Shown: positions 29,138 to 49,934 of the stretch, piece by piece
How positions within the stretch are numbered: position 1 is the stretch's first letter
Layout: each line of letters starts with the position of its first letter
Assembly (NCBI GenBank): GCA_020402945.1
Contig: JADBYQ010000032.1
Location: forward strand, 62,001-126,000
Length of the DNA stretch: 64,000 bases
Reading direction: 5' to 3'
Source: Cytophagales bacterium
GTDB taxonomy: Bacteria; Bacteroidota; Bacteroidia; Cytophagales; Cyclobacteriaceae
Program-made: the position numbers and the translations under genes
The notes under the pieces: model-generated
Database searches by the model: none
What the model was told of the DNA's origin: nothing
What the model saw: only the letters and a program-made list of their open reading frames with translations

Positions 29138-29728
29138 ATGAGTGTCCGCAGGGAGATACCCGAATACGATGGTATTTATTTTATAACCATCACTTGTAGC
29201 CAATGGCTTCATCTCTTTGATCTATCGAACGGATATGAAGAAGTGTACAAATGGTTTGATCATCTGAAAGGCAAGGGGCACTTAATTGCAGGGTATGTAA
29301 TCATGCCTAACCATATTCACGCACTCATTGCATTCAGAAATACACAAGGCGTATCCATCAACTCGATGATCGGTGAGGGTAAGCGATTTATGTCGTACGG
29401 AATTGTTAGAAGGCTAAAGGAAAAAAACGACCAGGAGGTGCTCGCGAGATTGTCAGCATTGGTAAATGCAACGGACAGAAAGCGAGGTAAACGGCATGAA
29501 GTGTTTGAGCCATCATTTGATTGGAAGGAATGCAGGAGCAATAAGTTCATCGATCAAAAACTGGATTACATCCATGAAAATCCATGTCGTGGAGTATGGA
29601 ATCTAGCAAACGAAGACAAGGAGTATATTCACAGTTCGGCAAAGTATTATGAAACTGGTGAGCAAGGGGTTTACTTAATAACGAACTATTCAGAATTGGA
29701 GGATATTGATTTGACTAAGACATTGTAG
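29138..29728 (+). mobile_element. REP-associated Y1/HUH transposase (RAYT-like)
   Basis: The 196-residue protein belongs to the IS200/Y1 transposase superfamily. It has the HUH metal site in MPNHIHALI (His59 and His61) and the nucleophile Tyr144 in KLDYIHENPCRGV, followed by SSAKYY. The DYIHxNP form and the single-copy gene flanked by hairpins of inverted orientation are typical of RAYTs, which move or maintain REP sequences, rather than of simple IS200 elements. It is transcribed from a 67-base region between hairpin R3 and the ATG. All catalytic residues are present, so it may be active. Confidence 0.88.
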
Positions 29729-30056: not shown

Positions 30057-32864
30057 TTACTTTTTCAATTCCAGTAGTCTGGCATGTGCAGCTGCTAATC
30101 GAGCCACAGGTACTCTCGGACCAGAACAGGACACATAGTTTAATCCAATTTCGTGGCAAAATAGAATCGACTCTGGATGTCCACCATGCTCACCACAAAT
30201 TCCGACTTTCAAGTCTTTATTCGTTTTCCGTCCGTCTTCTACAGCCATCCTCATTAACTTGCCCATTGCTTTTCGATCCAGCACTTCGAATGGATTATCT
30301 TTTAATAGCCCCTTGCTGATATAAAAGGGTAAGAATTTATTTTCAGCATCCTCGCGTGAGAAAGAAAATGTCGCTTGCGTTAAATCGTTGGTTCCAAAAG
30401 AAAGGAATTCGGCTACGTTTGCCAACTGATCTGCTTGTAGACAAGCACGAACAACTTCGATCATCGAACCAAACTTGAACTGAAGCTTAATCTTGTTGGC
30501 GGTCTCAATTTGAGTTCTTATTTCGTCAACGAATACTTTTACTTGTTCCAATTCTTCGGCCGTACACACTTGTGGCACCATAATTTCTGGTCGAACATCA
30601 ATGCCTGCTTTTTGACACTCCGCAGTGGCTTCCAATATGGCTTGAATTTGCATCCTGTAAATTTCCGGGAAGCTTAGTCCCAACCGCACTCCTCGATGAC
30701 CTAACATCGGATTTACTTCGTGCAGCTCGCGCGCTTTTTTCAACATTTGTCCCTTTTTAGCAATCGCTTTTTCAATCAGTTCCACACCGGCCAAAGTGAA
30801 CGGCTCAGATGACCGTTCAATCATTTTCAAATCTCCATTAAGCAGTCGTAGGCTACTGAATAAATCGGTGACACCACTAACTGTTCCTCTCAATTTCTGC
30901 AAGTGTTCGAGCTCGTCTTTTAACACATCCTCTGTAGGGAGAAACTCATGAATAGGAGGGTCCAATAGTCGCACCGTGACAGGACGTGGCGCCATAGCCA
31001 AAAAAATCTCCTTGAAGTCTTGCGCTTGCATTTTTTTCAATCGGTCAAGCGCTGATTCACGTTCTTCGACAGTCACTGCCAGAATCATTTCAACTACTAC
31101 GGGTAGACGTTCCACATCGTTAAACATCCGTTCTGTACGACAGAGACCAATTCCCATGGCACCAAATTCAAGTGCTTTTTTGGCAGCACCAGGGGTGTCA
31201 GCATTTGCCATCACTTTTAACTTAGCATTTTCATCAGCCCACGTTAATAGTGTTTTCAATTCGTCAGAAAAAGTAGGCTCTACGGTCGGAATTATACCTT
31301 GATAGACGTAACCTGATCCTCCATCAATGGTGATATAATCACCTTCGAGCAATGTCTTGTCGCCAATTTTGGCGACTCGCAATTTGGTGTCCACATGAAT
31401 GCCTTCGGCACCAGCAACACATGGTTTGCCCATGCCTCGGGCAACCACTGCAGCATGTGAAGTTTTGCCCCCTCTACTGGTAAGGATACCTTGGGCAGCA
31501 AAGAATCCGTGGATATCTTCTGGCTTCGTTTCTTCTCTTACCAGAATAACTTTTTCGCCTGCTTTGCCCATAAGCTCCGCGCGGTCTGCATCAAAGACAA
31601 CGTGCCCCGAGGCTGCGCCCGGAGAGGCAGGTAGTCCGTGTGCCAACGGTTCAGTTTTGTGAAGAGAATCCAGCCGTGGATGCAACAATTGCTCGAGCAT
31701 GTCTGGTTTGATTCGCAGGAGCGATTCTTCTTTTGTGATAAGTTTTTCCTTTGTCATTTCTACGGAAGTACGTACCATGGCGGTGGTGTTCATTTTACCG
31801 TTGCGTGTTTGCAAGCAAAACAACACTCCCTTTTCGATGGTGTATTCGAAATCCTGAACTTCCCGATAGTGAGTTTCTAATTTATTGCGCAACTCTTCCA
31901 ACTGCCTGTAAAGTTCAGGCATTTCTTTGGCCAACTCACTTACTGGCTTCGGTGTCCGTATCCCTGCCACCACGTCTTCACCCTGGGCGTTGGTCAGGTA
32001 TTCTCCAAACATCACATTTTCTCCGGTGCCGGGGTCTCGTGTAAAACCTACTCCAGTGGCACAGTCATTTCCCATATTGCCAAACACCATTGTCACCACA
32101 TTGACAGCTGTACCATTTGCCATGGCGGGAGTAATCTTGAATTCTCTGCGATAGTCGATCGCACGTTTTCCCATCCAGGAATTGAACACGGCTTTAATAG
32201 CAATTTCCAATTGTTCATAGACATCTTCAGGAAATGGTTTGCCGATATGATCGCTGACAACTTTTAAGAACCGATCACTGATTTCAATTAAGTTATTGGT
32301 GTTCAAACCGACATCCACTTTTACCCCTGCTTTCTTTTTCACTTCTTCGAAATGAGTATCAAATTTTTCATCGGGTACACCTAAGGCTACTTTACCAAAA
32401 AGTTGGATGAACCTGCGATAAGCGTCATATCCAAATCGCTCGTTGCCCGTTTGTGCAATTAGCCCTTTTAGTGTTCTCGAATTCAAACCAAGGTTCAATA
32501 TTGTATCCATCATACCTGGCATTGACATTGCCGAACCTGATCGGACTGAGACCAGCAAGGGGTTAGTGGCATCACCAAATTTCTTTCCAGTTGATTTTTC
32601 AATGGCTTTGATCTGTTCACGAACATCATCCATTAATCCGTTGGGTAATGATTTGTCGCTCGTTGCTAAGTAGGTTAAACAGGCTTCTGTTGAAATTACA
32701 AATCCAGGTGGCACATTCAGTCCGATTTGGGTCATCTCGCATAAATTTGCGCCCTTGCCCCCTAATAAGTGTTTATTTTTTCCGTCACCCTCTTTAAAAG
32801 AATAGACAAATTTTTTTGTGGTCGTTTTAGTCGCAATTGGTTCCAAAACATCAGCGGTTTTCAT
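30057..32864 (-). CDS. ppdK: Pyruvate, phosphate dikinase
   Basis: Interconverts pyruvate, ATP and phosphate with PEP, AMP and diphosphate. The 935-residue protein has the full three-domain layout: an N-terminal ATP-grasp part (LLGGKGANLCEMTQIGLNVPPGF), the swivelling phospho-His domain with LTSRGGKTSHAAVVARG, and the C-terminal PEP-binding barrel with GTNDLTQ and the catalytic Cys in GICGEHGG. Length and motifs are complete. The last 160 codons are repeated as a broken copy at 28551. With the pyruvate:flavodoxin oxidoreductase in this window it suggests active metabolism around the pyruvate/PEP node. Confidence 0.96.
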   Translation of the reverse strand: MKTADVLEPIATKTTTKKFVYSFKEGDGKNKHLLGGKGANLCEMTQIGLNVPPGFVISTEACLTYLATSDKSLPNGLMDDVREQIKAIEKSTGKKFGDATNPLLVSVRSGSAMSMPGMMDTILNLGLNSRTLKGLIAQTGNERFGYDAYRRFIQLFGKVALGVPDEKFDTHFEEVKKKAGVKVDVGLNTNNLIEISDRFLKVVSDHIGKPFPEDVYEQLEIAIKAVFNSWMGKRAIDYRREFKITPAMANGTAVNVVTMVFGNMGNDCATGVGFTRDPGTGENVMFGEYLTNAQGEDVVAGIRTPKPVSELAKEMPELYRQLEELRNKLETHYREVQDFEYTIEKGVLFCLQTRNGKMNTTAMVRTSVEMTKEKLITKEESLLRIKPDMLEQLLHPRLDSLHKTEPLAHGLPASPGAASGHVVFDADRAELMGKAGEKVILVREETKPEDIHGFFAAQGILTSRGGKTSHAAVVARGMGKPCVAGAEGIHVDTKLRVAKIGDKTLLEGDYITIDGGSGYVYQGIIPTVEPTFSDELKTLLTWADENAKLKVMANADTPGAAKKALEFGAMGIGLCRTERMFNDVERLPVVVEMILAVTVEERESALDRLKKMQAQDFKEIFLAMAPRPVTVRLLDPPIHEFLPTEDVLKDELEHLQKLRGTVSGVTDLFSSLRLLNGDLKMIERSSEPFTLAGVELIEKAIAKKGQMLKKARELHEVNPMLGHRGVRLGLSFPEIYRMQIQAILEATAECQKAGIDVRPEIMVPQVCTAEELEQVKVFVDEIRTQIETANKIKLQFKFGSMIEVVRACLQADQLANVAEFLSFGTNDLTQATFSFSREDAENKFLPFYISKGLLKDNPFEVLDRKAMGKLMRMAVEDGRKTNKDLKVGICGEHGGHPESILFCHEIGLNYVSCSGPRVPVARLAAAHARLLELKK

Positions 32865-35800: not shown

Positions 35801-36337
35801 CTAAATAAAAATAATTTGAGTTCCTTCGCCATCGGCAAGCGCATACATATCGCCCACCGTGATGATTCCTTTTACTTCAGGTAAGAAGTCTTCTTTTTTG
35901 AGATGGAACATATCCGCTGCGAGTTTGCACGCATAGATTTCGCCACCGCCAGCATCGATCATTTGTATAAACTCGGTAACATGTGGCATGTCCAATTTAT
36001 CCATCTCTTTCTTCATCATATAAGAAGCGAATGCCTCAAAGCCGGGTAGGCCGCCAAGCATCGTTGGTAAGCCCGGCATAAAAGCAGGATTACCCACTGT
36101 TGCGGTATGTAAGTGATCGGCATTTTTCTTGGTAATCGCTTCCAATCCAAAGAATGTAAAAAACATCTTGGCTTCAATTCCCTCCATTAAAGCACCATTG
36201 GCCATCACCAAAGCAGCATAGACATCTTCAATTTTTCCTTTTGAGCAAATGATCAATACTTTTTTCACTTTTGCTTTTTCTTTCTTGGCAGGCGCTTCGG
36301 TAGGTTTCGTTTGAATTTTTTCCATTACATCGTTCAT
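35801..36337 (-). CDS. DsrE/DsrF-like sulfur-relay family protein
   Basis: The 178-residue protein has a Lys-rich leader (1-30) and a DsrE-fold domain: KKVLIICSKGKIEDVYAALVMA, a segment with FFTFFGLEAI, and IYACKLAADMF with a conserved Cys that could carry persulfide. DsrE-like proteins hand sulfur between carriers. It is the last gene of a three-gene operon with a TusE-like carrier and an SQR-like flavoprotein, which supports a role in handling sulfane sulfur; the direction of transfer is inference. Confidence 0.82.
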   Translation of the reverse strand: MNDVMEKIQTKPTEAPAKKEKAKVKKVLIICSKGKIEDVYAALVMANGALMEGIEAKMFFTFFGLEAITKKNADHLHTATVGNPAFMPGLPTMLGGLPGFEAFASYMMKKEMDKLDMPHVTEFIQMIDAGGGEIYACKLAADMFHLKKEDFLPEVKGIITVGDMYALADGEGTQIIFI

Positions 36338-36370
36338 AGTGTTAGTGTCCTTTGGACTTTTCGTTGATAG

Positions 36371-36682
36371 TTAGATACAACTTACGGGCTTTGGAATACC
36401 AGCAATTTTGCTGGAGATTTTAAGTGGCCCTCCGGGAAATAGTTGATAGAACTCTTTGATATCCACCAATCCTGAATTACCGACTTTGCGGATGCTTAGC
36501 GCTACTCCTTCGGCTTGTTTTGCTCGAAGCCAATTCAGTACTTCAAAATGCCTGTCAGTCAATTCAATATTAACTTCTTTGGCTATTCCATGTGCAAGCT
36601 CGGGAGTCCATTGGGCAGGGTTTTTCAAATACCCATCCTCGTTTACGTCAACCATTCCATTATTCATCACAAGTGTTTCCAT
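36371..36682 (-). CDS. tusE: TusE/DsrC-family sulfur carrier
   Basis: The 103-residue protein has the DsrC/TusE fold pattern (DGYLKNPAQWTPELAHGIA, LTDRHFEVLNWLR) and the swinging C-terminal arm GIPKPVSCI, with the conserved penultimate Cys102. The second arm cysteine of true DsrC, about ten residues earlier, is absent (KISSKIAG), so the protein can carry one persulfide but cannot form the DsrC trisulfide bridge. Classical TusE serves tRNA thiolation with TusBCD and MnmA; here the neighbours are an SQR-like gene and a dsrE-like gene instead. Confidence 0.85.
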   Translation of the reverse strand: METLVMNNGMVDVNEDGYLKNPAQWTPELAHGIAKEVNIELTDRHFEVLNWLRAKQAEGVALSIRKVGNSGLVDIKEFYQLFPGGPLKISSKIAGIPKPVSCI

Positions 36683-36693
36683 ATAGTTTGTTT

Positions 36694-37947
36694 TTAAACG
36701 CTTTTTTCCTTCTCAATTTCTTTTCCTGCCATTGACATGTGGCTGCTTACCGGTAATGATCTTCCGGTGAGCAGAATGTGCCAGTAAATCCATTTGAAGG
36801 CAAGTTTTCCAAAGTGATTTGCTCTATTGACTTTGAGTAGTCCCATTGGTCCCACAACAGGCCATGGAAATTTCCCAGCCAGTGGCTCTGTTTCATAATT
36901 AAAATCAATAAGTGCGGCTTTGCCATATCCAGTTTCAATAAAGCAGTTGGCGTGTCCATCGAATTTCGCTTCCAACGGAAGTTTATTGATGTAGCTTAAA
37001 ATATTTTCCAATAGAATTTCACCTTCGAAATGCGCTACAGATCCAGCCTTCGAAGCCGGCACATTGGTGGCATCACCTATCACAAATACATTCTCAAATT
37101 TTTTAGATTGCAATGTTTGCTTGTCAGTAGGCACAAAGTTTAGTCCGTCTTCATCGCCAAGATTGCTGGCTGCAATCATATCCGCACCTTTGTTCACCGG
37201 TATGGAGACAAGCAAATCAAAAGGCACTTCCTTTTGATCGTAGGATACCAATACTTTTCGATCGTTATCCACTTCTTGTAAGTAAAAATCAGGTACAACA
37301 TGTATCTGCTTTTCTTCCAGTAACGCACTGAGCATCTTGGTTGCTTTTGGCTTTGTGAATGCCCCTGATAAGGGCGTAACATAGGATATTTCCACCTTGC
37401 TCCGCATTCCTTTTTCGGTGAAATAGGCATCGGCCAAAAAAGCAAATTCTAGTGGTGCAACGGGGCACTTGATTAATGTCTCGGCTAGATTGATCACTAG
37501 TTTTCCGCCTTCCCAATTTTCTAATTTCTTGGCTAGGTGAGTAGCTCCCTCGTACGTATAGAAATCAAAAATGTCCTTATGCCATAAAGATCCGGTCAGT
37601 CCCGGAGTCTCTTCGGGAACAACATTTGCGCCTGTCGCAATGACCAGTATATCGTACGGGAGTGTCCGTCCGCCTTTTAATAGAACTTGGTTTTTCTCCC
37701 CCTCGATGCGTGCAATATTGCCAATGATGAAGTTAACTCCCTTAGGTAGAAACTCCGCCTTTGTGCGCACCACGTCTTCGGGCTGATAAATGCCAAAGGG
37801 GATAAACAAAAAACCTGGTTGGTAGTAATGTATTTCGTCCTTATCGATGATAGTAATGTTCCAAATTTTGCGATTCAAATCGCGATACAGCTTGTTGGCC
37901 ATCATGGTACCAGCTGTGCCTGCTCCTAATATGACTAAGTTTTTCAT
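36694..37947 (-). CDS. sqr: Sulfide:quinone oxidoreductase-like flavoprotein
   Basis: The 417-residue FAD protein opens with LVILGAGTAGTMMANKL. It shows ATGANVVPE and a second FAD motif FVIGDATNVPASKAG. The Cys pair Cys161 (LIKCPVAPLEF) and Cys335 (HANCFIETGYGK) corresponds to the two redox Cys of SQRs; no third Cys exists, so it differs from three-Cys enzymes. The amphipathic C-terminus (LAFKWIYWHILLTGR) fits monotopic membrane binding. It would pass electrons from sulfide to menaquinone and so to the act-cox chain. tusE and dsrE follow with gaps of 11 and 33 bases. Confidence 0.83.
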   Translation of the reverse strand: MKNLVILGAGTAGTMMANKLYRDLNRKIWNITIIDKDEIHYYQPGFLFIPFGIYQPEDVVRTKAEFLPKGVNFIIGNIARIEGEKNQVLLKGGRTLPYDILVIATGANVVPEETPGLTGSLWHKDIFDFYTYEGATHLAKKLENWEGGKLVINLAETLIKCPVAPLEFAFLADAYFTEKGMRSKVEISYVTPLSGAFTKPKATKMLSALLEEKQIHVVPDFYLQEVDNDRKVLVSYDQKEVPFDLLVSIPVNKGADMIAASNLGDEDGLNFVPTDKQTLQSKKFENVFVIGDATNVPASKAGSVAHFEGEILLENILSYINKLPLEAKFDGHANCFIETGYGKAALIDFNYETEPLAGKFPWPVVGPMGLLKVNRANHFGKLAFKWIYWHILLTGRSLPVSSHMSMAGKEIEKEKSV

Positions 37948-38133: not shown

Positions 38134-41100
38134 ATGCTAAAAGCTGATCTCATGAAAAGTAAACCTAACTATATTAATACCGATGGAAACTCTGCTGTAG
38201 CCAATATTGCCTATGGTTTTAGCGAAGTAGCAGCCATTTATCCGATTACGCCTTCTTCCGACATGGGCGAGAAAGCAGATGCGTGGTCGGCAGAAGGAAG
38301 AAAAAACATATTTGGAGAAAGCGTAGATGTTGTCCAAATGCAATCGGAAGGCGGAGCTGCAGGGGCCATACATGGCGCGCTTACCGGAGGGGCAATGGCA
38401 ACCACCTTCACGGCTTCGCAAGGTTTGATGCTCATGGTGCCAAACATGTTTAAGATAGCCGGTGAAATGATTCCTACCGTTTTCCACGTTTCCGCTCGCT
38501 CACTGGCATGCCAGGCGCTGTCGATTTTTGGAGACCATTCAGATGTGATGGCCACCCGAGGCACTGGATTCGCGATGCTCTCTTCGGGCAACGTGCAGGA
38601 AGCGCAAGACCTGGCTGTAGTTGCGCACCTTTCCACATTAGAAGCACGCATTCCCTTTCTACATTTCTTCGATGGCTTTCGGACTTCACATTCAATTCAA
38701 AAAATTGTTCCGATTGAGTATGATACGTTGCGCGAGATGCTCGACATGAAATATGTGGAAGAGTTTCGCAAGCTCGCGCTGAAGCCCGAGGATCCGATGT
38801 GCAAGGTAGGTGCCCAAAACCCTGACGTGTATTTTCAGGGAAGGGAAACCGTAAACAAATATTATGACGCTTGTCCTGGGATTGTAAAAAAATACATGGA
38901 CCTGTTTGCCAAGAAAACGGGCCGCCAATACAAACTGTATGAATATGTAGGAGACCCCAAAGCAACAAAAATTATTATCTCCATGGGCTCTTCCATTGAA
39001 ACCATTGAGGAGACCATTAACTATCTCTTAAAAAAAGGAGAAAAAGTAGGCGCCATCAAAGTAAGATTGTATCGACCCTTTGCGCTCGAAGATTTTCTGA
39101 GCGTAATCCCCACTAGCGTAAAGAAGATAGTCGTACTTGATCGTACCAAAGAACCTGGCTCATTGGGCGAGCCACTTTTCTTAGATGTGGTGGCTGCACT
39201 ACGCACCCGAAAAGACATTCATATTATTGGTGGCCGCTATGGATTGTCTTCCAAAGAATTTACTCCGTCCATGGTGAAGGCTGTGTTTGATCATCTGGAA
39301 GTAGGAGGGTGGCATGGCTTTACTGTTGGTATCAATGATGATGTGACCAAGAAGTCCATTGCAGTGAAAGAAGAGATCGACACCGAACAGGAAGGCATTG
39401 TTCGTTGCAAATTCTGGGGTTATGGATCAGATGGAACCGTAAGCGCGAATAAAAACGCCATTAAAATTATTGGCGAAAGTACTGACTTGTTTGTGCAGGG
39501 ATATTTTCAATACGACTCTAACAAGTCAGGAGGGTATACTGTGTCGCATTTGCGCTTTGGCAAAAAGCCGATTCAATCAGAATACCTGTTGAATAAAGTT
39601 GACTTTGTGGCGCTGCATCGTCCGCAATACATCGGTCAATATGATATCCTAGAAGGAATTTCAACCGGTGGAACATTTCTCATCAATAGTAGTCAGAAGC
39701 CGGAAAATATTTTCAGGCTTTTTACCCGCGACATGCAGGAGACCATCTGGAAAAAGAAAATAAAAGCGTACGCGATCGATGCTTCTAAAATTGCCAAGAG
39801 TGTTGGATTGGGTGGAAGAATCAATTCGGTGATGCAAACGGCTTTCTTTAAAGTGTCGGGTGTGGTGCCGGAGGCGGAAGCAATAGCTCTGATTAAAAAA
39901 TATGTAGAAAAGCAATTTGCAAGGAAAGGACCGGAGATTGTTGAAATGAACTGGAAAGCCATCGATGTTACCTGCGAGGCCATCGTGCAAGTGCCGATCC
40001 CTACGGAATCAGAAAAATTTGCTGAGATCACTCAACTGATTCTGGCCGGCTCTGGCGATTTTGCCGACCATGTTATTGACCCAATTCTAAGATTAAAAGG
40101 CGACACGATTCCCGTTTCTAGGATGCCGCTCAATGGTGCCGTGCCCACAGGCACAAAGAAACTAGAATATCGTGGAGTAGCGGGTAATGCGGCCACTTGG
40201 ATTGAGAAACTCCCATTTGTGCAAGAGCCTTATATCGCTGAGCCTTACATCGAGTATGCTCCCAGCTGTTCCGGTTGCGGAGAGGTTCCTTACATTCATT
40301 TAGCTACGCAATTATTTGGCGATCGAATGATGATCGCAAACGCTACAGGCTGTACATCAATTTATGGAGGTACATTCCCCACTACACCTTATATGAAAGA
40401 CAGTAAAGGCAAAGGACCTGCCTGGGCTAATTCACTATTTGAAGATAATGCAGAGTTTGGTTTTGGTATGAGGATGGCGGTGGATGCCAATAGAAAGCAG
40501 TTGAAGACGAACGTACATGCATTGATACCTTTGTTGAACAATGCCCCGTTGCGCGCTGCCCTTGAAAAAGGCCTGATGCTTTTTGATGTGATCACGCGCG
40601 AGGCGCGCGATCATGCGGATGCCATCAAACAGTTATTGGCTGAAGAACACAAAAGAAGTTCAGGCAATAAAGAGTTAAGAATTCTACTTGATAAAGTAAT
40701 TGAGCTGCAAGACTATTTTGTTGATAAGAGTGTTTGGATATTTGGTGGTGACGGCTGGGCCTATGATATTGGTTTTGGCGGACTGGACCATGTGATGGCC
40801 TCTAACAAAAACGTCAATGTGCTGGTTATGGATACCGAAGTGTACTCGAACACCGGTGGGCAGGCATCGAAAGCAACGCCACGTGGAGCGGTAGCAAAAT
40901 TCGCTTCAGACGGAAAAAAATTGAGTAAGAAGAACTTGGGCTTAATGATGACGACCTACGGCAATGCCTATGTGGCCGTGGTGAACATGGGTATGGATCG
41001 CGAGAAGACAGCGCTGGCGTTTGTAGAAGCCGAGAAGCACAACGGCCCATCTATCATTATCGCTTACTCGCCTTGCATTGCGCATGGATATGATATGAGA

Positions 41101-41373
41101 TTGACCAAAAAACAATCTGAGAAAGCCAGCAAGAGTGGCTACTGGCCCATGTATCGCTTCAATCCGGATTTGCGTGCCGAGGGAAAAAATCCTTTTATCT
41201 GGGACGTGCCCGTGACGGAGGATGCCGTGTCATTCAAGAATTATTTGGAAGAAGAACTTCGCTACAAAACGCTAAACCTTTCTAACCCTGAAGAGGCGGT
41301 GCGGCTAGAGGAGTTGGCACAGAAAGATAATGAACAACGATTCAAAGACATCAAGCACTTATCTGAAGTTTAA
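38134..41373 (+). CDS. Pyruvate:ferredoxin/flavodoxin oxidoreductase lacking the internal ferredoxin domain
   Basis: Oxidises pyruvate with CoA to acetyl-CoA and CO2, reducing a low-potential carrier. The 1079-residue protein has the pyrimidine-binding domain (AAIYPITPSSDMGEKAD), the CoA and gamma domains, and the TPP domain. The proximal [4Fe-4S] Cys set is intact: Cys712 and Cys715 (SCSGCGE), Cys740 (NATGCTS) and Cys981 (SPCIAHG), with spacing close to that of the Desulfovibrio africanus enzyme. The domain that normally carries two further [4Fe-4S] clusters is missing: the chain runs from KKLEYRGVAGNAATWIE almost directly to EYAPSCSGCGE, without the expected CxxCxxCxxxCP pairs. Electrons probably leave from the proximal cluster straight to flavodoxin (42480). 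The ATG at 38152 is an alternative start. Confidence 0.92.
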   Translation: MLKADLMKSKPNYINTDGNSAVANIAYGFSEVAAIYPITPSSDMGEKADAWSAEGRKNIFGESVDVVQMQSEGGAAGAIHGALTGGAMATTFTASQGLMLMVPNMFKIAGEMIPTVFHVSARSLACQALSIFGDHSDVMATRGTGFAMLSSGNVQEAQDLAVVAHLSTLEARIPFLHFFDGFRTSHSIQKIVPIEYDTLREMLDMKYVEEFRKLALKPEDPMCKVGAQNPDVYFQGRETVNKYYDACPGIVKKYMDLFAKKTGRQYKLYEYVGDPKATKIIISMGSSIETIEETINYLLKKGEKVGAIKVRLYRPFALEDFLSVIPTSVKKIVVLDRTKEPGSLGEPLFLDVVAALRTRKDIHIIGGRYGLSSKEFTPSMVKAVFDHLEVGGWHGFTVGINDDVTKKSIAVKEEIDTEQEGIVRCKFWGYGSDGTVSANKNAIKIIGESTDLFVQGYFQYDSNKSGGYTVSHLRFGKKPIQSEYLLNKVDFVALHRPQYIGQYDILEGISTGGTFLINSSQKPENIFRLFTRDMQETIWKKKIKAYAIDASKIAKSVGLGGRINSVMQTAFFKVSGVVPEAEAIALIKKYVEKQFARKGPEIVEMNWKAIDVTCEAIVQVPIPTESEKFAEITQLILAGSGDFADHVIDPILRLKGDTIPVSRMPLNGAVPTGTKKLEYRGVAGNAATWIEKLPFVQEPYIAEPYIEYAPSCSGCGEVPYIHLATQLFGDRMMIANATGCTSIYGGTFPTTPYMKDSKGKGPAWANSLFEDNAEFGFGMRMAVDANRKQLKTNVHALIPLLNNAPLRAALEKGLMLFDVITREARDHADAIKQLLAEEHKRSSGNKELRILLDKVIELQDYFVDKSVWIFGGDGWAYDIGFGGLDHVMASNKNVNVLVMDTEVYSNTGGQASKATPRGAVAKFASDGKKLSKKNLGLMMTTYGNAYVAVVNMGMDREKTALAFVEAEKHNGPSIIIAYSPCIAHGYDMRLTKKQSEKASKSGYWPMYRFNPDLRAEGKNPFIWDVPVTEDAVSFKNYLEEELRYKTLNLSNPEEAVRLEELAQKDNEQRFKDIKHLSEV

Positions 41374-41391: not shown

Positions 41392-42435
41392 ATGGTCGAT
41401 CTAACAACAAAATACTGTGGACTCACCCTGAAGAACCCCATTGTGGTAGGAGCCAGCAACCTGGTTACCGATCTGGACAATTTAGTAAAGCTTGAAAAGG
41501 CGGGTGCAGCTGCAATAGTTTACAAATCCCTTTTTGAAGAGCAAATTCAACTGGAGTCGTTGGACATGGAGAACGCCCAGGAGACGTTTAGCAACTGGGA
41601 TGCTGAACATGATTCGTTCTTTCCCACATTAAAACATGGCGGACCTGCCGAACATTTACTGCGCCTGCGGCAAGCAAAAAGAGCCGTATCGATTCCACTA
41701 ATAGGGAGTCTCAACTGTGTATACCGCGACACGTGGGTAGAATATGCCCAGAAAATGGCAGAGACAGGAATTGATGCATTGGAGCTGAATTTCTATACCA
41801 GCGAAATTGGTTTTGAGACAGACGGTGCGCATGTAGTCAATGAGCAAATTGAAGTATTAAGAAATGTGCACAAGGCAATCCGTATCCCGGTCATTGTTAA
41901 ACTTAGCCCTTTCTATACTAATTCACTTTCAGTAATTTCCAAGATGGATAAAGCAGGTGCATCAGGCGTTGTATTGTTTAACCGACTCTTTCAACCAGAC
42001 ATTGACGTGGATAAAGAGATGCATCACTATCCTTATAATTTCAGTAGTGAAAACGACAGCCGTTTGGCGTTGCGTTATGCCGGTTTGCTTTATAGTAAGA
42101 TCGATGCCAGTATCATCGCGAACACGGGTATTTTTTCAGGCATTGATGTGATCAAGATGTTATTGGCCGGAGCCGATGCGGTGCAAGTGGTGAGTGCAAT
42201 TTATAAAAAAGGAATTCCTGTTATCGAGTCAATGCTAGCTGAAATGACAAAATGGATGGAGAAGAAGAAATACCCTTCTATACAGGAGTTTAAAGGTAAA
42301 TTGTCGAAAGAGAATATGTTTGATCCGTTTGCGTATAAACGTGCTCAATATGTTGATATTTTGATGCGATCTGAAATATTTATGCAGTATCACCCCAAGC
42401 ACGGTGAGTTAAAAAATGATCATGAGGATATTTAG
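41392..42435 (+). CDS. Dihydroorotate dehydrogenase-like flavoprotein
   Basis: The 347-residue TIM-barrel protein resembles class 1 dihydroorotate dehydrogenase: an opening TTKYCGLTLKNPIVVGASN, FMN-binding regions IPVIVKLSPFYTN and IIANTGIFSGIDVIKMLLAGADAVQVV. The catalytic loop that reads NxSCPN in class 1 enzymes is NFYTSEIG here, without the Cys base. It is therefore unlikely to be the housekeeping PyrD. Such DHOD-like genes often stand next to PFOR genes, but their reaction is not established. Starts 18 bases after the PFOR gene. Confidence 0.8.
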   Translation: MVDLTTKYCGLTLKNPIVVGASNLVTDLDNLVKLEKAGAAAIVYKSLFEEQIQLESLDMENAQETFSNWDAEHDSFFPTLKHGGPAEHLLRLRQAKRAVSIPLIGSLNCVYRDTWVEYAQKMAETGIDALELNFYTSEIGFETDGAHVVNEQIEVLRNVHKAIRIPVIVKLSPFYTNSLSVISKMDKAGASGVVLFNRLFQPDIDVDKEMHHYPYNFSSENDSRLALRYAGLLYSKIDASIIANTGIFSGIDVIKMLLAGADAVQVVSAIYKKGIPVIESMLAEMTKWMEKKKYPSIQEFKGKLSKENMFDPFAYKRAQYVDILMRSEIFMQYHPKHGELKNDHEDI

Positions 42436-42479: not shown

Positions 42480-42986
42480 ATGGCAAAAATTGGAATCTTC
42501 TTCGGTTCAACCGAAGGCAACACAGAAAGAGTAGTAGCACAAATTCAGAAGGCACTCGGTGGTGAGCCAGAAGTGGTGCTGCACAATGTCAATTCAGCAA
42601 CTGCGGATGATCTTCAACCGTATTCAAACTTAATATTAGCATGTCCCACCTGGGAGATCGGGCAACTGCAAGAAGATTGGGATGCTTTTATTGACGAGTT
42701 GGATGATGTTGACTTCAAAGGAAAGAAAGTTGCTTTTCAGGGTTGTGGTGATGCAGACGGGTATCCCGACACATTCTTAGATGCACCGGGCATTATTTAC
42801 GACCGGATCAAGGACAAAGGTGCCACTTTCGTGGGCGCTTGGCCTACCGATGGCTACAATTTTGAAGCATCCAAGGCGGTGGTCAATGGAAAATTTTTGG
42901 GTCTGGCAATCGATGAGGACAACCAGAAAGACTTAACTGCTGGGCGCATTGAAAAATGGGCTGCACAGTTGAAAAGCGAGTTTTAA
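42480..42986 (+). CDS. fldA: Flavodoxin
   Basis: The 168-residue long-chain flavodoxin has the FMN phosphate loop FFGSTEGNTERV at about 8-19, TWEIGQLQEDWDAF and GCGDADGYPDTFLDAPG. It carries low-potential electrons. Its place between PFOR and rnf genes points to it as the carrier joining the two, and flavodoxin can also feed IspG. It is separated from the DHOD-like gene by a 44-base AT-rich gap. Confidence 0.94.
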   Translation: MAKIGIFFGSTEGNTERVVAQIQKALGGEPEVVLHNVNSATADDLQPYSNLILACPTWEIGQLQEDWDAFIDELDDVDFKGKKVAFQGCGDADGYPDTFLDAPGIIYDRIKDKGATFVGAWPTDGYNFEASKAVVNGKFLGLAIDEDNQKDLTAGRIEKWAAQLKSEF

Positions 42987-42998: not shown

Positions 42999-44066
42999 AT
43001 GGCAGATATCCGATTTAAGAAGCCGATCTTTCCCGTAAGTGTTTCCTTGCGAAATTACTTGCAAAAAACACAACGTGAAATTGATGTGCCAATCGGATAT
43101 ACTGACTTATTACACTATAATAGTTCGATCACCTTCTTCGACAAAAAGGGCGAGGATACCCTTTGGGAGACACTCATTTACTCTGAGTCTGACCGGCAGT
43201 TTATTCATGAATCGCTGAGAAAGGTTTATGCTTTGCTGAAAGTGGGTGGTGATATGTCGGTGATCGAACATTTATACATCGATCGGGTAGATTACTGCCT
43301 GTATGCCAATACACACCCTGTCCGGGTGCGGATAGTGAACCGGCTCAACGATTTGTTCGACTATTTTTATATTAAACAAGCAGATGCGTCCCGCGTCTAC
43401 GGGATGGAGCTAGAGCACTTGTTATCTCCCAATAAAATAAACTACCTCATTAAAGGTGACACGTTCATCGAGGAGCACATACAAGGTATTCCAGGAGATA
43501 CTTTTATTAAGCATTACCTCACGGAACATCACGACTACAACCCGCTACGCATTGCAAAAGAGTTTGTAAAATTCAATGAGCGCAGTTTAGTACAATTACT
43601 AGGAGACATGCGAAGAGATAATTTTGTGGTAGAAATTATACCCGATTTCGATGAGTTGCATTTTCGATTACGCGCCATTGATTTTGACCAGGAATGCTTT
43701 GAGGGGAGTTGTAAAATTTACATGCCACAGTACTTCAAGGAAAATAATCCGATTATCAACCTAGGGTTTAAGAGCATGTCGCCCGTTTTGGAATTACAAT
43801 ACCAGCGCGAAGAACGGATGCGCTTGAGTAATCGTGTTAAAGCCTCGCAGCCTCAGTTGGAGACACTTCTGTCGGCCATGACGAAGGATACACTATCAAC
43901 TCCCGAACATTTACACCAACTTAAGACTGAATTAGCAGAACTTTATCAAGATACTGGTTTTGTTTCCTGCCAAAGCATGGGAGAAATAGTGCAAAAAAGT
44001 ATGTTGCTTTTGGATAAATATCCTGTGCGGAAACGTTACAAAATGAAGTCAGCGGTTGCTGGATAA
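42999..44066 (+). CDS. Unrecognised protein with kinase-fold (APH-like) signatures
   Basis: A 355-residue soluble protein of no family that I can name. It carries an ordered set of residues like that of aminoglycoside/choline-kinase-type phosphotransferases: a strand with Lys126 (FYIKQADASR), a helix with Glu137/Glu139 (YGMELEHLL), a catalytic-loop-like GDMRRDN (Asp203 to Asn208, the D-x4-N spacing of the HGDxxxxN loop, without the leading His), and AIDFDQ (Asp228) in the place of the metal-binding Asp. The N-terminal 100 residues and the C-terminal 90 helical residues are extra. It starts 12 bases after flavodoxin. It may act on a neighbouring protein or small molecule; catalysis is inference. 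Confidence 0.55.
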   Translation: MADIRFKKPIFPVSVSLRNYLQKTQREIDVPIGYTDLLHYNSSITFFDKKGEDTLWETLIYSESDRQFIHESLRKVYALLKVGGDMSVIEHLYIDRVDYCLYANTHPVRVRIVNRLNDLFDYFYIKQADASRVYGMELEHLLSPNKINYLIKGDTFIEEHIQGIPGDTFIKHYLTEHHDYNPLRIAKEFVKFNERSLVQLLGDMRRDNFVVEIIPDFDELHFRLRAIDFDQECFEGSCKIYMPQYFKENNPIINLGFKSMSPVLELQYQREERMRLSNRVKASQPQLETLLSAMTKDTLSTPEHLHQLKTELAELYQDTGFVSCQSMGEIVQKSMLLLDKYPVRKRYKMKSAVAG

Positions 44067-44078: not shown

Positions 44079-46223
44079 ATGAAGATATTTTACTTTCAGT
44101 TCTGGTTGCTGTTTAGTGTTTTTGGTACACAGGCACAGACTTACACTCTATACTCTCCCAAGAAAATAATTAAGGTCAATGTTTCATTAACCCCTCGTGG
44201 CGAGTTGGTGTATGGTGTGAATTTTAAGGACAAGGAAGTGGTTATGGCTTCTTCTCTTGGGTTCGAATTGGCAAACAGCTCGTTGAAAGATAATTTCATC
44301 CTCGGCAAGGTTGACTCCTCTCGCGTGAATGAAAATTGGCGCCCTGTTTGGGGAGAGGTGAAAGAGATAACCAATAATTACAAGGAGTATATTTTTCATT
44401 TAGCGGAAAAGACCGAAAAAGTCAGGTTGATGAATATAGTCTTTCGTCTATTTGACGATGGCATCGGGTTCCGATACGAGTTTCCTACACAGCCTAACCT
44501 GCAGCACTTTGTCATTAAGGAGGAACTCACGAGCTTTCGACTGACAGGTGATCACAAAGCATTTTGGATACCTGGCGACTATGACACAAACGAATACAAC
44601 TACACGACATCAAATCTAAGCGATGTAGATGGGAATAGAGTGAAGTATAAGGCCCCTGAAATCGGAACCAGGTTTGTGAAAGATGCCTCGTCTGTGCAAA
44701 CACCGTTGACCCTGAAGACAAAAGGAGGGTTGTATATTAATATTCATGAAGCTTCGCTGCTCAACTATCCGGCTATGCAATTACATGTAGATAAAGAAAC
44801 ACATCAATTGATCAGTAGTCTGGTGCCAGATGCTGTTGGAAACAAGGCTTACTTGCAGACTCCATTCAAAACGCCTTGGCGCACAATTATTGTCAGTGAT
44901 AAGGCAGCTGATCTTCTTTCTTCCAAATTAATACTCAATTTGAATGAGCCGTCAAAAATTGAAAATACGGCATGGATAAAGCCTACTAAGTACATTGGCA
45001 TTTGGTGGGAGATGCATGTGGGCAAAGGCACCTGGGATTTTGCAGGAAGTCAGGACGCGTTTAGCATGGAAAATACAAAAGGGCTAAAACCCACTGGTAA
45101 ACATGTGGCAACTACAGAGCGAACCAAACAGTATATTGATTTTGCAGCCCAACATGGTTTTGATGGCGTCTTGGTGGAGGGTTGGAACACCGGATGGGAG
45201 GATTGGTTTGGAAATTGGAAAGAAGATGTGTTTGACTTTATTACGCCCTATCCGGATTTTAATGTAAAAGAATTACAACAGTATGCCTCCGCGAAAGGAG
45301 TGAAGTTAATAATGCATCACGAAACTTCTGGTTCCGTTACTAACTACGAGCGGTCGATGGATACCGCCTATGATTTTATGAAAACCAACGGGTATGATGC
45401 AGTAAAAACAGGCTACGTGGGAAAAATTATTCCAAGAGGTGAATACCACGATGGTCAATGGATGGTACGTCACTATCAACGTGTGGCGGAGAAGACAGCA
45501 GCCAAACAAATTATGTTGGACGCACACGAGCCGGTCCGTTCTACCGGTTTACACCGTACCTATCCCAACTGGCTAGCTAGCGAAGCGGCCAGAGGAAATG
45601 AATTCAATGCATGGAGCACTGGCAACCCACCGGAACATGAAACTATCTTACCTTTTACCCGATTGATGGGCGGACCGATGGATTATACTCCGGGGATATT
45701 TGGAATCAAATTAGATCGTTATGGAAAGGCAGGCTATCAGGTGCACACCACGTTGACAAAACAACTTGCTCTGTACGTTACCATGTATAGCCCTTTACAA
45801 ATGGCGGCTGATTTGCCGGAAGTATACAACGAACACCTTGCTGCCTTTCGGTTTATTAAAGACGTAGCCGTTGATTGGGATGACACCAAAATAATAGAAG
45901 CTGAGCCCGGTGATTTTATTTCGATAGCCAGAAAACAAAAAGGCAAAGACAATTGGTTCATCGGTGCAATAACAGACGAAAACAAAAGAATAGCGGTCCT
46001 GCCGCTGGCGTTTTTAGACAAGGGAAAGAAATATGTGGCTACTGTTTATAAAGATGCAGCCACTGCGCATTGGCAAAAAAAACCTGAAGCATATGTGATT
46101 GAAAAAGGGTTAGTGGATGAGAAGACAGTGTTATCAGTTCGGCTTGCGGAAGGTGGAGGATGTGCCATAAGTATCATGCCAGCCACGGCTTCGGAAGTTA
46201 AACAAATGAAAAGATTGAAATAG
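44079..46223 (+). CDS. GH97 alpha-glucosidase, SusB-like
   Basis: A 714-residue secreted or periplasmic glycosidase with a signal peptide (residues 1-19, ending TQAQ). It has an N-terminal super-beta-sandwich domain, a TIM barrel (about 290-560) with WWEMHVGKGTWDF, VEGWNTGWEDW and HHETSGSVTNYERSMD, then DAHEPVRSTGLHRTYPN and SEAARGNEF. The Glu residues in HHET, AHEPV and SEAARG match the positions used by the inverting SusB type rather than the retaining GH97 type. It lies in the middle of the electron-transfer genes, 12 bases after the kinase-like gene and before rseC/rnf, with no obvious functional link. Confidence 0.9.
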   Translation: MKIFYFQFWLLFSVFGTQAQTYTLYSPKKIIKVNVSLTPRGELVYGVNFKDKEVVMASSLGFELANSSLKDNFILGKVDSSRVNENWRPVWGEVKEITNNYKEYIFHLAEKTEKVRLMNIVFRLFDDGIGFRYEFPTQPNLQHFVIKEELTSFRLTGDHKAFWIPGDYDTNEYNYTTSNLSDVDGNRVKYKAPEIGTRFVKDASSVQTPLTLKTKGGLYINIHEASLLNYPAMQLHVDKETHQLISSLVPDAVGNKAYLQTPFKTPWRTIIVSDKAADLLSSKLILNLNEPSKIENTAWIKPTKYIGIWWEMHVGKGTWDFAGSQDAFSMENTKGLKPTGKHVATTERTKQYIDFAAQHGFDGVLVEGWNTGWEDWFGNWKEDVFDFITPYPDFNVKELQQYASAKGVKLIMHHETSGSVTNYERSMDTAYDFMKTNGYDAVKTGYVGKIIPRGEYHDGQWMVRHYQRVAEKTAAKQIMLDAHEPVRSTGLHRTYPNWLASEAARGNEFNAWSTGNPPEHETILPFTRLMGGPMDYTPGIFGIKLDRYGKAGYQVHTTLTKQLALYVTMYSPLQMAADLPEVYNEHLAAFRFIKDVAVDWDDTKIIEAEPGDFISIARKQKGKDNWFIGAITDENKRIAVLPLAFLDKGKKYVATVYKDAATAHWQKKPEAYVIEKGLVDEKTVLSVRLAEGGGCAISIMPATASEVKQMKRLK

Positions 46224-46248: not shown

Positions 46249-46668
46249 ATGAAAAAGGAATCAGATTATTTTGAATCACTTGGGTTCGTAACCAGTAGTC
46301 TCAATGGGACGCTCAAAATAGCGCTGACTGGATCTGGCTGTTCTGCGTGTCACCATAGCTTGTGTATGTTGGGCGAGAGCAAGGCCAAAGAATTGGAAGT
46401 GACCATCACCGATAGCGCCTTCCTCGTGGGAGAAGAAGTGTTGATTCGAGTCAACCCGGCTTCTGCGTATTTGGGTTTAGTGGTTTTGTACCTCCTACCT
46501 TTTCTGTTACTCGTTGGGTTGTTGATTGGTTTTTTGCAAATGGGATATACGGAGTCGATTGCGGGGTCTATCTCGTTAGCGAGCTTGGTGCCATACTTTC
46601 TGCTTTTGTTTTTATTTCGCAGACAACTGGCCACTCAGTGTAGAGTGAATATTATCAAAAAAGTATGA
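46249..46668 (+). CDS. rseC: RseC/SoxR-reducing-system-type protein
   Basis: The 139-residue protein has an N-terminal domain with GSGCSACHHSLCMLG (three clustered Cys, as in RseC), a beta domain, two membrane helices (about 75-120) and a basic tail. RseC/RsxC-type proteins accompany Rnf-like complexes and are tied to SoxR reduction in Enterobacteria. It overlaps rnfB by four bases, so it is the first gene of the rnf operon. Confidence 0.84.
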   Translation: MKKESDYFESLGFVTSSLNGTLKIALTGSGCSACHHSLCMLGESKAKELEVTITDSAFLVGEEVLIRVNPASAYLGLVVLYLLPFLLLVGLLIGFLQMGYTESIAGSISLASLVPYFLLLFLFRRQLATQCRVNIIKKV

Positions 46669-47600
46669 GCACCGAAATTATTTATACCGTAATAAGTCTT
46701 ACAGCGATTGGGATAATTGCAGCTGTTGTAATCTATTTCGTTTCCAAAAAGTTTGCTGTCCAAGAAGATCCACGCATAAGTAATGTTGAAAGTGTACTGC
46801 CCAACACAAATTGTGGCGGTTGTGGCCACCCCGGATGCCATGCGTTTGCCGTGGCCGTGGTCAACGCGGGAGACCTTTCTAGTCTACATTGCCCTGTTGG
46901 GGGTAACTCGGTGATGAAACGAGTAGCTGATATCCTTGGGGTGCAAGCGGTTGAAAAAGATCCCTACATCGCGGTGGTACGTTGTTCGGGTTCTTTTGAG
47001 CACCGAAAAAAAACAAGTGTGTACAATGGCACAAGCTCTTGTAAAATAGAAGCGAATCTGTACAGTGGCGATACCGGCTGCGCCTATGGCTGCCTAGGCC
47101 ATGGCGACTGTGTAGATGTCTGTGACTTTGATGCCATGTACATAGATGAGAAGACCGGTTTGCCTGTAATTGTTGAAGACAAATGCACTGCCTGCAACGC
47201 CTGTGTCAACGAATGCCCGAAAGATATTTTAGAGCTGTGGCCAAAAGGAAAGAAAAATCAACGCGTATATGTTGCTTGCCTCAATGAGGAAAAAGGTAGC
47301 ACTGCCCGTAAAGAATGTGCAGTGGCATGCTCTGGCTGTTCTAAGTGTTTTGAATCCTGTCGTTACGATGCCATCAGCATGGTTAATAATCTGGCTCATA
47401 TTGATCCAGACAAATGCAAGTTGTGCATGGAATGTGTAGGAACATGCGATGTACATAACATCATTACCGCCAATGTAACGCCTGAGAAGTTACAGCAAGG
47501 TGATGAACAACGGCTGAAGCATGAAGAACGTGCTCGTAAAAAAAGAGAAGCAGAAAAATTAGCAGCCCAACAAAGTAACAATGAGCCTCCACAAGCATAA
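46665..47600 (+). CDS. rnfB: Rnf complex subunit B, polyferredoxin
   Basis: Takes electrons from reduced ferredoxin or flavodoxin into the Rnf complex. The 311 residues comprise a membrane anchor (about 4-27), the cluster domain TNCGGCGHPGCHAF with a later LHCPVGG, and four further Cys groups: CAYGCLGHGDCVDVC, CTACNACVNECP, CAVACSGCSKCFESC and CKLCMECVGTC. That is more clusters than the two extra ones in E. coli RsxB, as is usual in Bacteroidota. The C-terminal tail is a charged helix rich in Lys and Arg. It overlaps rnfC by 20 bases. Confidence 0.95.
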   Translation: MSTEIIYTVISLTAIGIIAAVVIYFVSKKFAVQEDPRISNVESVLPNTNCGGCGHPGCHAFAVAVVNAGDLSSLHCPVGGNSVMKRVADILGVQAVEKDPYIAVVRCSGSFEHRKKTSVYNGTSSCKIEANLYSGDTGCAYGCLGHGDCVDVCDFDAMYIDEKTGLPVIVEDKCTACNACVNECPKDILELWPKGKKNQRVYVACLNEEKGSTARKECAVACSGCSKCFESCRYDAISMVNNLAHIDPDKCKLCMECVGTCDVHNIITANVTPEKLQQGDEQRLKHEERARKKREAEKLAAQQSNNEPPQA

Positions 47601-48915
47601 AACATTTAGCATCGGAGGGGTGCACCCGGATGAAAATAAGTTATCGGCACATACGCCCATTACCCCCCTGGAGTTGCCCAAGATGGTGATCATCCCCATT
47701 ACTCAACATATTGGAGCACCTGCGAAGATCATCGTTCAACGAGGTGATGCGGTGAAGGCTGGACAAATTATTGCCACACACGAAGGATTCGTTTCTTCCA
47801 ACATTCATTCTTCCGTTTCCGGAAAAGTAGGCATCATTGAAGAGGTGATGGATAGTACCGGTTTTAAACATACAGCCATTTCTATTCGTGTGAAGGGCGA
47901 TGAATGGGTGGAAAACATTGATCGCACCGATACACTCATCGAAGAAGTAGCATTGTCTCCCAAAGAGATTGTAGCGCGGATTATGGAATCCGGTGTAGTA
48001 GGCATGGGTGGAGCAGCCTTCCCATCTCATGTAAAACTCAGTGTCCCGGAAGGCAAACACGTGGATCATTTGATTATTAATGGTGTTGAGTGCGAGCCGT
48101 TCCTCACAGCGGATCATCGACTGATGGTTGAAAAGCCAAAGGAAATTATCGTTGGTGTCAAAATATTGATGAAGGCGTTGGGCGTTGACAAGGCCATCAT
48201 CGGCATTGAAGATAATAAAGCCGATGCCATTGAAATTTTTGAGAATCTATTGGTGACTGAACCCGGGATTTCAGTGGAGGCCCTCGAAGTGCAATATCCA
48301 CAAGGAGGAGAGAAACAATTGATTCAGGCGCTATTGAATCGCGAAGTTCCTTCGGGTGGCTTGCCTTCAGATGTAGGCGTCATCGTTCACAATGTAGGCA
48401 CTACGTATGCCATCTATCAGGCTGTTCAAAAAAATATACCATTGGTTGAACGAGTTGTAACAGTCACTGGCAAGTCGGTCAAACAACCCTCCAATTTTTT
48501 AGTGCGAATTGGAACTCCTGTAATCGATGTATTGATTGCTGCGGGTGGGGTGCCTGAAGATACGGGTAAGATTGTAAGTGGCGGGCCCATGATGGGCAAA
48601 GCCATTGCTGATTTAGATGTACCGGTGGCGAAAGGTACCTCCGGTATTTTGCTCATACCTAAGGAAGATTCGATGCGCGAAGAAGTGTACAACTGCGTGC
48701 ATTGTGGGAAATGCATTGAGGCATGTCCTATGGGTCTTGAGCCTTATCGTTTGTTGTTGTTGGCGAAAAAAGGAAATCACTCACGAGCAAAAGAAGAACA
48801 CATTATTGATTGCATTGAATGTGGATCATGTTCCTTCGTTTGTCCTTCCAATCGCCCCATCTTGGATTATATACGACTGGGTAAGACGCAATTAAAAAAA
48901 CAAAAGAAACCATGA
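47581..48915 (+). CDS. rnfC: Rnf complex subunit C, NADH-binding
   Basis: The 444-residue peripheral subunit carries the NAD/FMN site (VVGMGGAAFPSHVKLSV, HLIINGVECEPFLTAD, PQGGEKQLIQAL) and two [4Fe-4S] motifs, CVHCGKCIEACP and CIECGSCSFVCP. It is the exchange point with NAD/NADH. The length corresponds to the core form, without the long Ala/Lys-rich C-terminal tail of enterobacterial RsxC. It overlaps rnfD by four bases. Confidence 0.95.
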   Translation: MSLHKHKTFSIGGVHPDENKLSAHTPITPLELPKMVIIPITQHIGAPAKIIVQRGDAVKAGQIIATHEGFVSSNIHSSVSGKVGIIEEVMDSTGFKHTAISIRVKGDEWVENIDRTDTLIEEVALSPKEIVARIMESGVVGMGGAAFPSHVKLSVPEGKHVDHLIINGVECEPFLTADHRLMVEKPKEIIVGVKILMKALGVDKAIIGIEDNKADAIEIFENLLVTEPGISVEALEVQYPQGGEKQLIQALLNREVPSGGLPSDVGVIVHNVGTTYAIYQAVQKNIPLVERVVTVTGKSVKQPSNFLVRIGTPVIDVLIAAGGVPEDTGKIVSGGPMMGKAIADLDVPVAKGTSGILLIPKEDSMREEVYNCVHCGKCIEACPMGLEPYRLLLLAKKGNHSRAKEEHIIDCIECGSCSFVCPSNRPILDYIRLGKTQLKKQKKP

Positions 48916-49934
48916 GTGCTGGATTGCTCACTGTATCTCCTTCTCCTCATATTCATAGTGAGTTGACCGTGCCGCAAATTATGCGGGCCGTAATTATTGC
49001 CATGGTGCCGGCATTTTTACTCGCTATCTACAATTTTGGACTAGGTGCGGTGTATTTAACGGCTCTCTCCGTATTTTTTTGCGTAGCCATTGAATATCTG
49101 ATTGCCCGCTATCTATTGAATAAGTCTGCATCTATCTACGATGGCTCGGCCGTGATCACAGGCGTATTGCTGGCATTTAACGTGCCTTCCAATTTGCCTT
49201 GGTACATTATCTTGATCGGAAGTATGGTATCCATTGGCATAGGAAAGATGAGTTTCGGTGGACTTGGAAATAATCCATTCAATCCGGCATTGGTTGGTCG
49301 TGTGTTTTTATTGTTGTCGTTTCCAGTTCAGATGACGTCCTGGCCAATCGCCAAGGCAACTCTTTCACTGGACGCCATCACAAGTGCAACGCCTTTGGGA
49401 ATATTCAAAGAAGGCCTTCGTGCAGGAGAATCCGTACAAGCATTGATGACAAAAATGCCTTCGTATGCAGATTTCTTTTTCGGTACGCAAAGTGGTTCGC
49501 TGGGTGAGATGTCAACCTTTGCTTTGTTAATTGGTCTGGCCTACATGCTTTATAAAAAGATCATTACTTGGCATATTCCTGTGTCTATGCTGGTTACCGT
49601 TTTTGTGATCACGGGGATTTTCTGGTTGATCGACCCTTCGAAGTATGCAACACCTCTTTTTCACATTCTAACCGGAGGCGTCATGTTGGGCGCGGTGTTT
49701 ATGGCTACTGATTATGTGACTTCTCCCTTTACCCATCGGGGCATGCTGATTTTTGGTTTTGGTATTGGATTGCTCACGGTGTTGATTCGTTTGTTTGGCA
49801 GCTATCCGGAAGGGGTATCGTTCGCGATCTTAATTATGAATGCCGTTGTGCCGTTTATTAACCGGTTTGCGAAAGAACCCCGTTACGGAGCAAAACGTGC
49901 GAAGGATAAGGAGCTCGAAACCGTAATGCACTAG
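48912..49934 (+). CDS. rnfD: Rnf complex subunit D, membrane flavoprotein
   Basis: The 340-residue membrane subunit has about nine or ten helices. The segment AITSATPLGIF resembles the site where FMN is bound covalently to Thr in RnfD/NqrB, and GKMSFGGLGNNPFNPALVGR is the family core. It forms the ion-translocating part with RnfA, E and G. The stop codon overlaps the upstream end of rnfG. Confidence 0.94.
   Translation: MSAGLLTVSPSPHIHSELTVPQIMRAVIIAMVPAFLLAIYNFGLGAVYLTALSVFFCVAIEYLIARYLLNKSASIYDGSAVITGVLLAFNVPSNLPWYIILIGSMVSIGIGKMSFGGLGNNPFNPALVGRVFLLLSFPVQMTSWPIAKATLSLDAITSATPLGIFKEGLRAGESVQALMTKMPSYADFFFGTQSGSLGEMSTFALLIGLAYMLYKKIITWHIPVSMLVTVFVITGIFWLIDPSKYATPLFHILTGGVMLGAVFMATDYVTSPFTHRGMLIFGFGIGLLTVLIRLFGSYPEGVSFAILIMNAVVPFINRFAKEPRYGAKRAKDKELETVMH

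Follow-up and report, generated by a model that had tools for sequence, protein, structure and literature searches.

The closest described relatives of the enzyme considered here are the single-chain pyruvate:ferredoxin oxidoreductases (PFOR/NifJ) of Desulfovibrio africanus (1b0p) and M. thermoacetica (6cin), in which domain V, an intramolecular 2x[4Fe-4S] ferredoxin domain, carries a median and a distal cluster. A second type, the two-subunit (ab)2 2-oxoacid:ferredoxin oxidoreductases (OFOR), is represented by StOFOR of Sulfolobus, which has one [4Fe-4S] cluster and no domain V; the cluster sits close to the surface of a pocket that opens between domains III and VI; (ab)2 enzymes of Halobacterium and Hydrogenobacter are named alongside it (PMC5020499). 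According to the same paper, (ab)2 OFORs without an intramolecular ferredoxin domain had at that time been observed only in aerobes of extreme conditions. Here we analyze a stretch of 64,000 nucleotides from a Cytophagales bacterium (contig JADBYQ010000032.1, positions 62,001 to 126,000; the window), which encodes a single-chain PFOR without domain V, in the following the short form. No description of such an enzyme was found in searches of openly licensed PMC papers. The relevant features, in window coordinates, are:

38134–41373, plus strand: single-chain PFOR without domain V, 1079 amino acids
40189–40251, plus strand: junction region, residues 686–706, left at the site of domain V in ordinary PFORs (84-row alignment)
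40267–40353, plus strand: codons C712 to C740 with the proximal [4Fe-4S] ligands C712, C715 and C740 (cysteine in 84 of 84 rows)
41074–41076: codon of the fourth proximal ligand, C981

The PFOR frame is open from ATG to stop, and its product reaches 1494 bits with the PFOR/NifJ equivalog model TIGR02176 (cut-off 911.35). Pfam places POR_N, PFOR_II, POR, EKR and TPP_enzyme_C in this order on the chain. In a phmmer alignment with D. africanus PFOR, residues 14–691 matched 5–685 and residues 700–1077 matched 799–1166; 113 D. africanus residues, which comprise domain V and the eight cysteines of its clusters, thus face 8 residues in the window protein, a net shortening by 105, while all remaining domains are kept. 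An earlier note on this DNA, made from the sequence alone, had claimed a clean excision of about 100 residues in an intact frame with retention of Cys 712, 715, 740 and 981, and the alignment confirmed both points. Pfam revealed no Fer4 domain anywhere in the chain and no small dicluster ferredoxin gene in the 64-kb window (Fer4_7); the earlier note had named a ferredoxin domain elsewhere in the chain, or a separate adjacent ferredoxin subunit required for activity, as speaking against its reading. By the phmmer offsets, the four cysteines correspond to C812, C815, C840 and C1071 of D. africanus PFOR, which we take to be the numbering of its proximal-cluster ligands. T39, E72, R122 and N906 fall at the catalytic positions, presumably T31, E64, R114 and N996 in number and role in the D. 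africanus enzyme, and all four are invariant in a 45-row alignment. The overall PFOR fold was confirmed by a structural match (VIA-align 2), in which the protein was 53–54% identical to 6cin and its kin entries and 17–20% identical to the two-subunit OFORs 5b46 and 6n2n.

In sequence and fold the window protein therefore belongs to the PFORs, but its domain architecture is incomplete, domain V being absent. With the D. africanus and M. thermoacetica enzymes it shares the order of domains I–IV and VI, the catalytic residues and the proximal cluster; it also lacks the C-terminal extension of D. africanus PFOR and ends at the same place as the M. thermoacetica protein (1171 amino acids). The single cluster and the missing domain V are reminiscent of the (ab)2 OFORs. 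In those enzymes, however, domains III-I-II (alpha) and VI (beta) reside on separate chains and domain IV is absent, whereas the window protein is one chain with the order I-II-III-IV-VI that keeps the EKR domain IV, and the short form is nested among ferredoxin-containing single-chain PFORs. Judged from the sequences, the short form is distinct from the (ab)2 OFORs in chain make-up, retained domain IV and kinship.

For comparison, 100 loci were gathered, 70 from a genome-contig scan and 30 from the phylum search. After exclusion of 16 truncated or broken loci, 84 rows were aligned; the window copy is one of them, and some genomes entered twice via both routes. Domain V is absent in 35 rows (27 from Bacteroidota and 8 from Spirochaetota, with a few repeats) and present in 49, so that the deletion, for which the earlier note had proposed a search in Bacteroidota, was found there and in a second phylum. 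The four proximal cysteines occur in 35/35 short and 49/49 ordinary rows; the eight cysteines of domain V are present in all 49 ordinary rows and replaced by gaps in the 35 short ones. On three trees of 56, 34 and 30 rows, from which the columns of the junction and of domain V had been removed, the short forms constitute one side of a single branch with full support (SH-aLRT 100 on one tree, bootstrap/SH-aLRT 100/100 on the other two). This clade, which is common to two phyla, is nested among ordinary ferredoxin-containing PFORs and adjoins a Spirochaete copy that possesses domain V (L089). Given the drawn root, domain V was apparently lost once, with one change on each of the three trees. Two independent deletions in the two phyla were not supported, as each tree required one change, the two-origin topology itself being without a formal test. 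The presence of both phyla within the short clade suggests a transfer of the short PFOR between Spirochaetota and Bacteroidota, without a settled direction.

Seven pairs were compared for dN/dS; four of them gave a finite dS, with ratios of 0.026–0.057, and the other three did not. As this low ratio is accompanied by open frames and by an identical junction in metagenome-assembled genomes (MAGs) of many projects and two phyla, an assembly error or frameshift is unlikely. Among 291 genomes of the window's order, nine have a short PFOR, in two cases divided between contigs, four have an ordinary one, and one fragment was undecidable. At least 4 short forms occur among the matches listed for 395 Bacteroidota genomes and at least 3 among those listed for 296 Spirochaetota genomes; full-length short forms rank at the top of these lists, and copies split over contigs could be missed. 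A trend opposite to that of the window PFOR was observed in a 1637-aa PFOR relative (L116:936-5849, plus strand, on contig C7 of genome G111). This protein, about 30% identical to the window PFOR, has kept the in-chain iron-sulfur motifs and carries an extra C-terminal single-cluster ferredoxin domain (Fer4_13); frames of about 1640 amino acids akin to it are present in other genomes of the order.

Downstream of the PFOR gene and on the same strand, the window contains a string of genes that ends at position 51704:

41392–42435, plus strand: dihydroorotate-dehydrogenase-like (DHOD-like) flavoprotein (NF005741, 371 bits)
42480–42986, plus strand: long-chain flavodoxin of the FldA type (TIGR01752, 221 bits), the proposed electron acceptor
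42999–44066, plus strand: 355-aa protein with no Pfam family over the cut-off, between flavodoxin and rnf
44079–46223: gene that we take to be GH97-like, inside the PFOR-flavodoxin-rnf string
46249–46668, plus strand: presumed RseC-like protein at the head of rnf, labelled by position; homologous frames occur elsewhere
46665–47600, plus strand: presumed RnfB (sequence, gene order, Fer4_7 matches), the proposed entry for reduced flavodoxin
47581–48915, plus strand: RnfC (TIGR01945, 551 bits)
48912–51704, plus strand: presumed RnfD, RnfG, RnfE and RnfA (frames; order as in the Spirochaete locus L114)

The labels RseC-like, RnfB, RnfD, RnfG, RnfE and RnfA are assumptions of ours based on gene order, sequence or position. 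The intergenic gaps between the end of the PFOR gene and the beginning of the RseC-like gene measure 12–44 bases, and no terminator-like site was found in these gaps on the plus strand. The string extends into a complete rnf operon, which, like the two-phylum clade, goes beyond the earlier note. The order PFOR, DHOD-like flavoprotein, flavodoxin is found in all 28 Bacteroidota loci with downstream DNA (2 of 30 end inside PFOR), and Rnf follows in 15 of the 28 within the flanks examined. G560 and G435, which belong to the same taxonomic order but are more distant, also keep these three genes. In the Spirochaete G830, the RseC-like gene and rnfBCDGEA are followed by flavodoxin, a short PFOR and the DHOD-like gene, all within 13 kb, and its PFOR groups with the Spirochaete rows (support 91/88). 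This arrangement, together with the place of G830 in the tree, argues that the module was probably united in the ancestor from which all short forms descend and later broken up in other Spirochaetes. Throughout the Bacteroidota loci examined, and in G830, the short PFOR is accompanied by the DHOD-like flavoprotein. The 355-aa protein follows flavodoxin in many Cyclobacteriaceae-type loci, with no match in L044, L045, L046, L067 and L091. The GH97-like gene lies within the string in the window and in L031 and is absent in L032, whose PFOR is 98% identical; this indicates a recent insertion or loss.

The linkage is paralleled by co-occurrence in whole genomes. A long-chain flavodoxin over the TIGR01752 cut-off accompanies the short PFOR in 24/24 tested genomes (22/22 and 2/2) and the ordinary PFOR in 3/56 (1/20 and 2/36), and it is missing from all 10 tested genomes that share genus or family but have no PFOR match. 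Within Spirochaetota alone, which provide the more independent part of the association, the counts are 8/8 for short and 2/38 for ordinary forms. No p-value is given because related genomes are not independent. RnfC exceeded the cut-off in 21/24 short-form genomes, in one of the four same-order genomes with an ordinary PFOR and in 0/10 genomes without PFOR, Spirochaetes with an ordinary PFOR being uncounted. The earlier note had proposed the flavodoxin encoded two genes downstream as the likely acceptor, and gene linkage (28/28) and co-occurrence (24/24) support this proposal. The resolution of a flavodoxin tree was too weak for it to reveal a joint movement of PFOR and flavodoxin.

We consider it likely that the product of the window gene is a functional pyruvate:flavodoxin oxidoreductase that lacks the two-cluster ferredoxin domain because of a single removal in a forebear of the copies present today in Cytophagales-type Bacteroidota and in a group of Spirochaetota. 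Pyruvate would be oxidised on thiamine pyrophosphate as in other PFORs, and the electrons would reach the sole remaining [4Fe-4S] cluster. The long-chain flavodoxin could then dock in the pocket vacated by domain V, between domains III and VI, and accept electrons singly and directly from the proximal cluster. As the PFOR has lost its built-in ferredoxin and is encoded beside a flavodoxin and an ion pump, electrons are probably handed straight to flavodoxin. Rnf would oxidise the reduced flavodoxin with NAD+ and store the energy as an ion gradient; other users of flavodoxin are conceivable. The short form is most likely a flavodoxin-dedicated PFOR feeding Rnf. What the data show is the anatomy, the single loss on the trees, the constraint on the sequence, the gene linkage and the co-occurrence; the direct transfer to flavodoxin is inferred from them. 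Nine of ten positions diagnostic for short versus ordinary forms (430, 437, 463, 494, 595, 610, 705, 708, 934) fall within domains III and VI or at their margins, the tenth being 158; this is a weak indication, since these two domains make up about half of the chain. The potentials of the lower flavodoxin couple (-420 mV) and of NAD+ (-320 mV) given in PMC5861303 fit onward flow via Rnf. The same three-part idea has been put forward for Treponema pallidum, where PFOR would reduce flavodoxin and Rnf would oxidise it with NAD+; this pathway is a proposal in which PFOR is still to be tested, and the likeness considered here is one of idea, the excerpted text making no mention of domain V (PMC7512555). 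Two Giardia papers matched by phrase were set aside, as the phrase was applied to nitroreductases and not to PFOR.

Several points weigh against a flavodoxin-dedicated enzyme. Within the flanks examined, none of the 12 loci that the contig scan recovered from Spirochaetes has a flavodoxin, DHOD-like or Rnf neighbour, and in G992 the flavodoxin gene is located about 36 kb from PFOR. The co-occurrence in Bacteroidota repeats the gene linkage, and the association as a whole draws on related genomes, which form a single clade in each of the two phyla. Flavodoxin also accompanies the ordinary PFOR in the three genomes mentioned above, and RnfC remained under the cut-off in 3/24 short-form genomes, so that Rnf is not obligatory. 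No experiments on the short form were found in the openly licensed PMC literature. A review on RNF and NQR names ferredoxin as the partner of Rnf (PMC12174285). The Eubacterium limosum POR, comparable by its activity alone, is described as reducing flavodoxin at rates comparable to ferredoxins (PMC13390469), and loss of domain V may therefore not be needed for flavodoxin use. Finally, a gene for a 118-aa 4Fe-4S dicluster ferredoxin is present elsewhere in the genome of the organism, on a different contig (L117:1170-1526), and Fer4_7 matches in small frames (102–188 amino acids) were detected in 3 of 6 genomes tested.

The last two observations would also suit an alternative in which domain V has become detachable: a soluble dicluster ferredoxin would take its place in the empty pocket from outside, and flavodoxin would be only a later carrier or a low-iron substitute. 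A docking model of the two-subunit Sulfolobus enzyme StOFOR2 with its ferredoxin (PMC5020499) provides a precedent, and under low iron three host-associated Bacteroidetes were reported to raise fldA and to lower ferredoxin and pfor expression (PMC10434189). The 118-aa ferredoxin gene, however, is unlinked to the short PFOR, the other three of the six genomes (G146, G830, G992) have no Fer4_7 match in a frame below 250 amino acids (this search was confined to Fer4_7 and to six of the 24 genomes), and flavodoxin is present in every short-form genome tested. We therefore regard an external ferredoxin as unlikely, albeit the strongest competitor of direct transfer to flavodoxin.

Still less probable is that the domain loss represents an oxygen adaptation, with the removal of exposed clusters allowing the enzyme to survive in cells that respire. 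The earlier note had offered this as the reason, pointing to a caa3 oxidase; cytochrome oxidase genes are indeed present in the window (frames and COX1), 'caa3' being that note's own label. Heme-copper oxidase subunit I was found in 16/16 tested short-form Bacteroidota, and two-subunit OFORs without domain V are described in PMC5020499 as relatively oxygen-tolerant and derived from aerobes. The same oxidase, however, occurs in 4/4 same-order genomes with an ordinary PFOR, and among Spirochaetota, mostly MAGs of unstated completeness, heme-copper oxidase was found in 0/8 short-form versus 4/38 ordinary-form genomes and bd oxidase in 0/8 versus 5/38. With neither of these two oxidases found in the 8 short-form Spirochaetota, oxygen use is not what the short forms share, and the explanation of the earlier note is not supported. 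Moreover, the oxygen stability of D. africanus PFOR is credited to its C-terminal extension (PMC5020499), and the window protein stops where that enzyme continues into it. Oxygen tolerance may still be a benefit in Bacteroidota. A repurposed 2-oxoacid enzyme that is not pyruvate-specific or does not donate electrons, e.g., a non-oxidative decarboxylase, is very improbable: an enzyme deprived of two of its three clusters might in principle no longer export electrons, and no biochemistry was found for the short form, but the low dN/dS, the retained catalytic and cluster residues, the TIGR02176 score far above the cut-off and the conserved linkage to redox genes all oppose it.

The E1 alpha subunit of pyruvate dehydrogenase (PDH) was over the cut-off in 38/38 genomes tested, including all 24 with a short form. 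The short PFOR as the only pyruvate dehydrogenase was therefore rejected; it would represent a second pyruvate route, perhaps one that serves where electrons of low potential are required.

On the opposite strand upstream of PFOR, positions 35801–37947 encode a type III sulfide:quinone reductase (best match NF049943, selenoprotein subtype), a DsrC-like and a DsrE2-like protein; of the 70 contig-scan loci, only L031 and L032 carry these genes within the flanks examined. Further upstream, at 28551–29728, a 185-aa second copy of the C-terminal part of PPDK adjoins a frame with a sub-cut-off match to an IS200-like transposase, beside what we presume to be the full PPDK gene (30057–32864).

The short form constitutes a natural deletion experiment at the electron exit of a textbook enzyme, cutting the clusters from three to one per chain, and raises the question whether the two outer clusters are needed with a flavodoxin partner. 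It makes the flavodoxin specificity of PFOR testable with one protein pair. It further suggests that oxidase-bearing Bacteroidota carry a compact module of PFOR, flavodoxin and Rnf, hidden under an ordinary NifJ annotation. In our judgement the chances are evenly balanced that these enzymes represent a class of obligate flavodoxin reductases, in which a PFOR without its ferredoxin wire would form an energy-conserving module with flavodoxin, the DHOD-like flavoprotein and Rnf, spread between Spirochaetota and Bacteroidota and including respiring bacteria that already have a pyruvate dehydrogenase.
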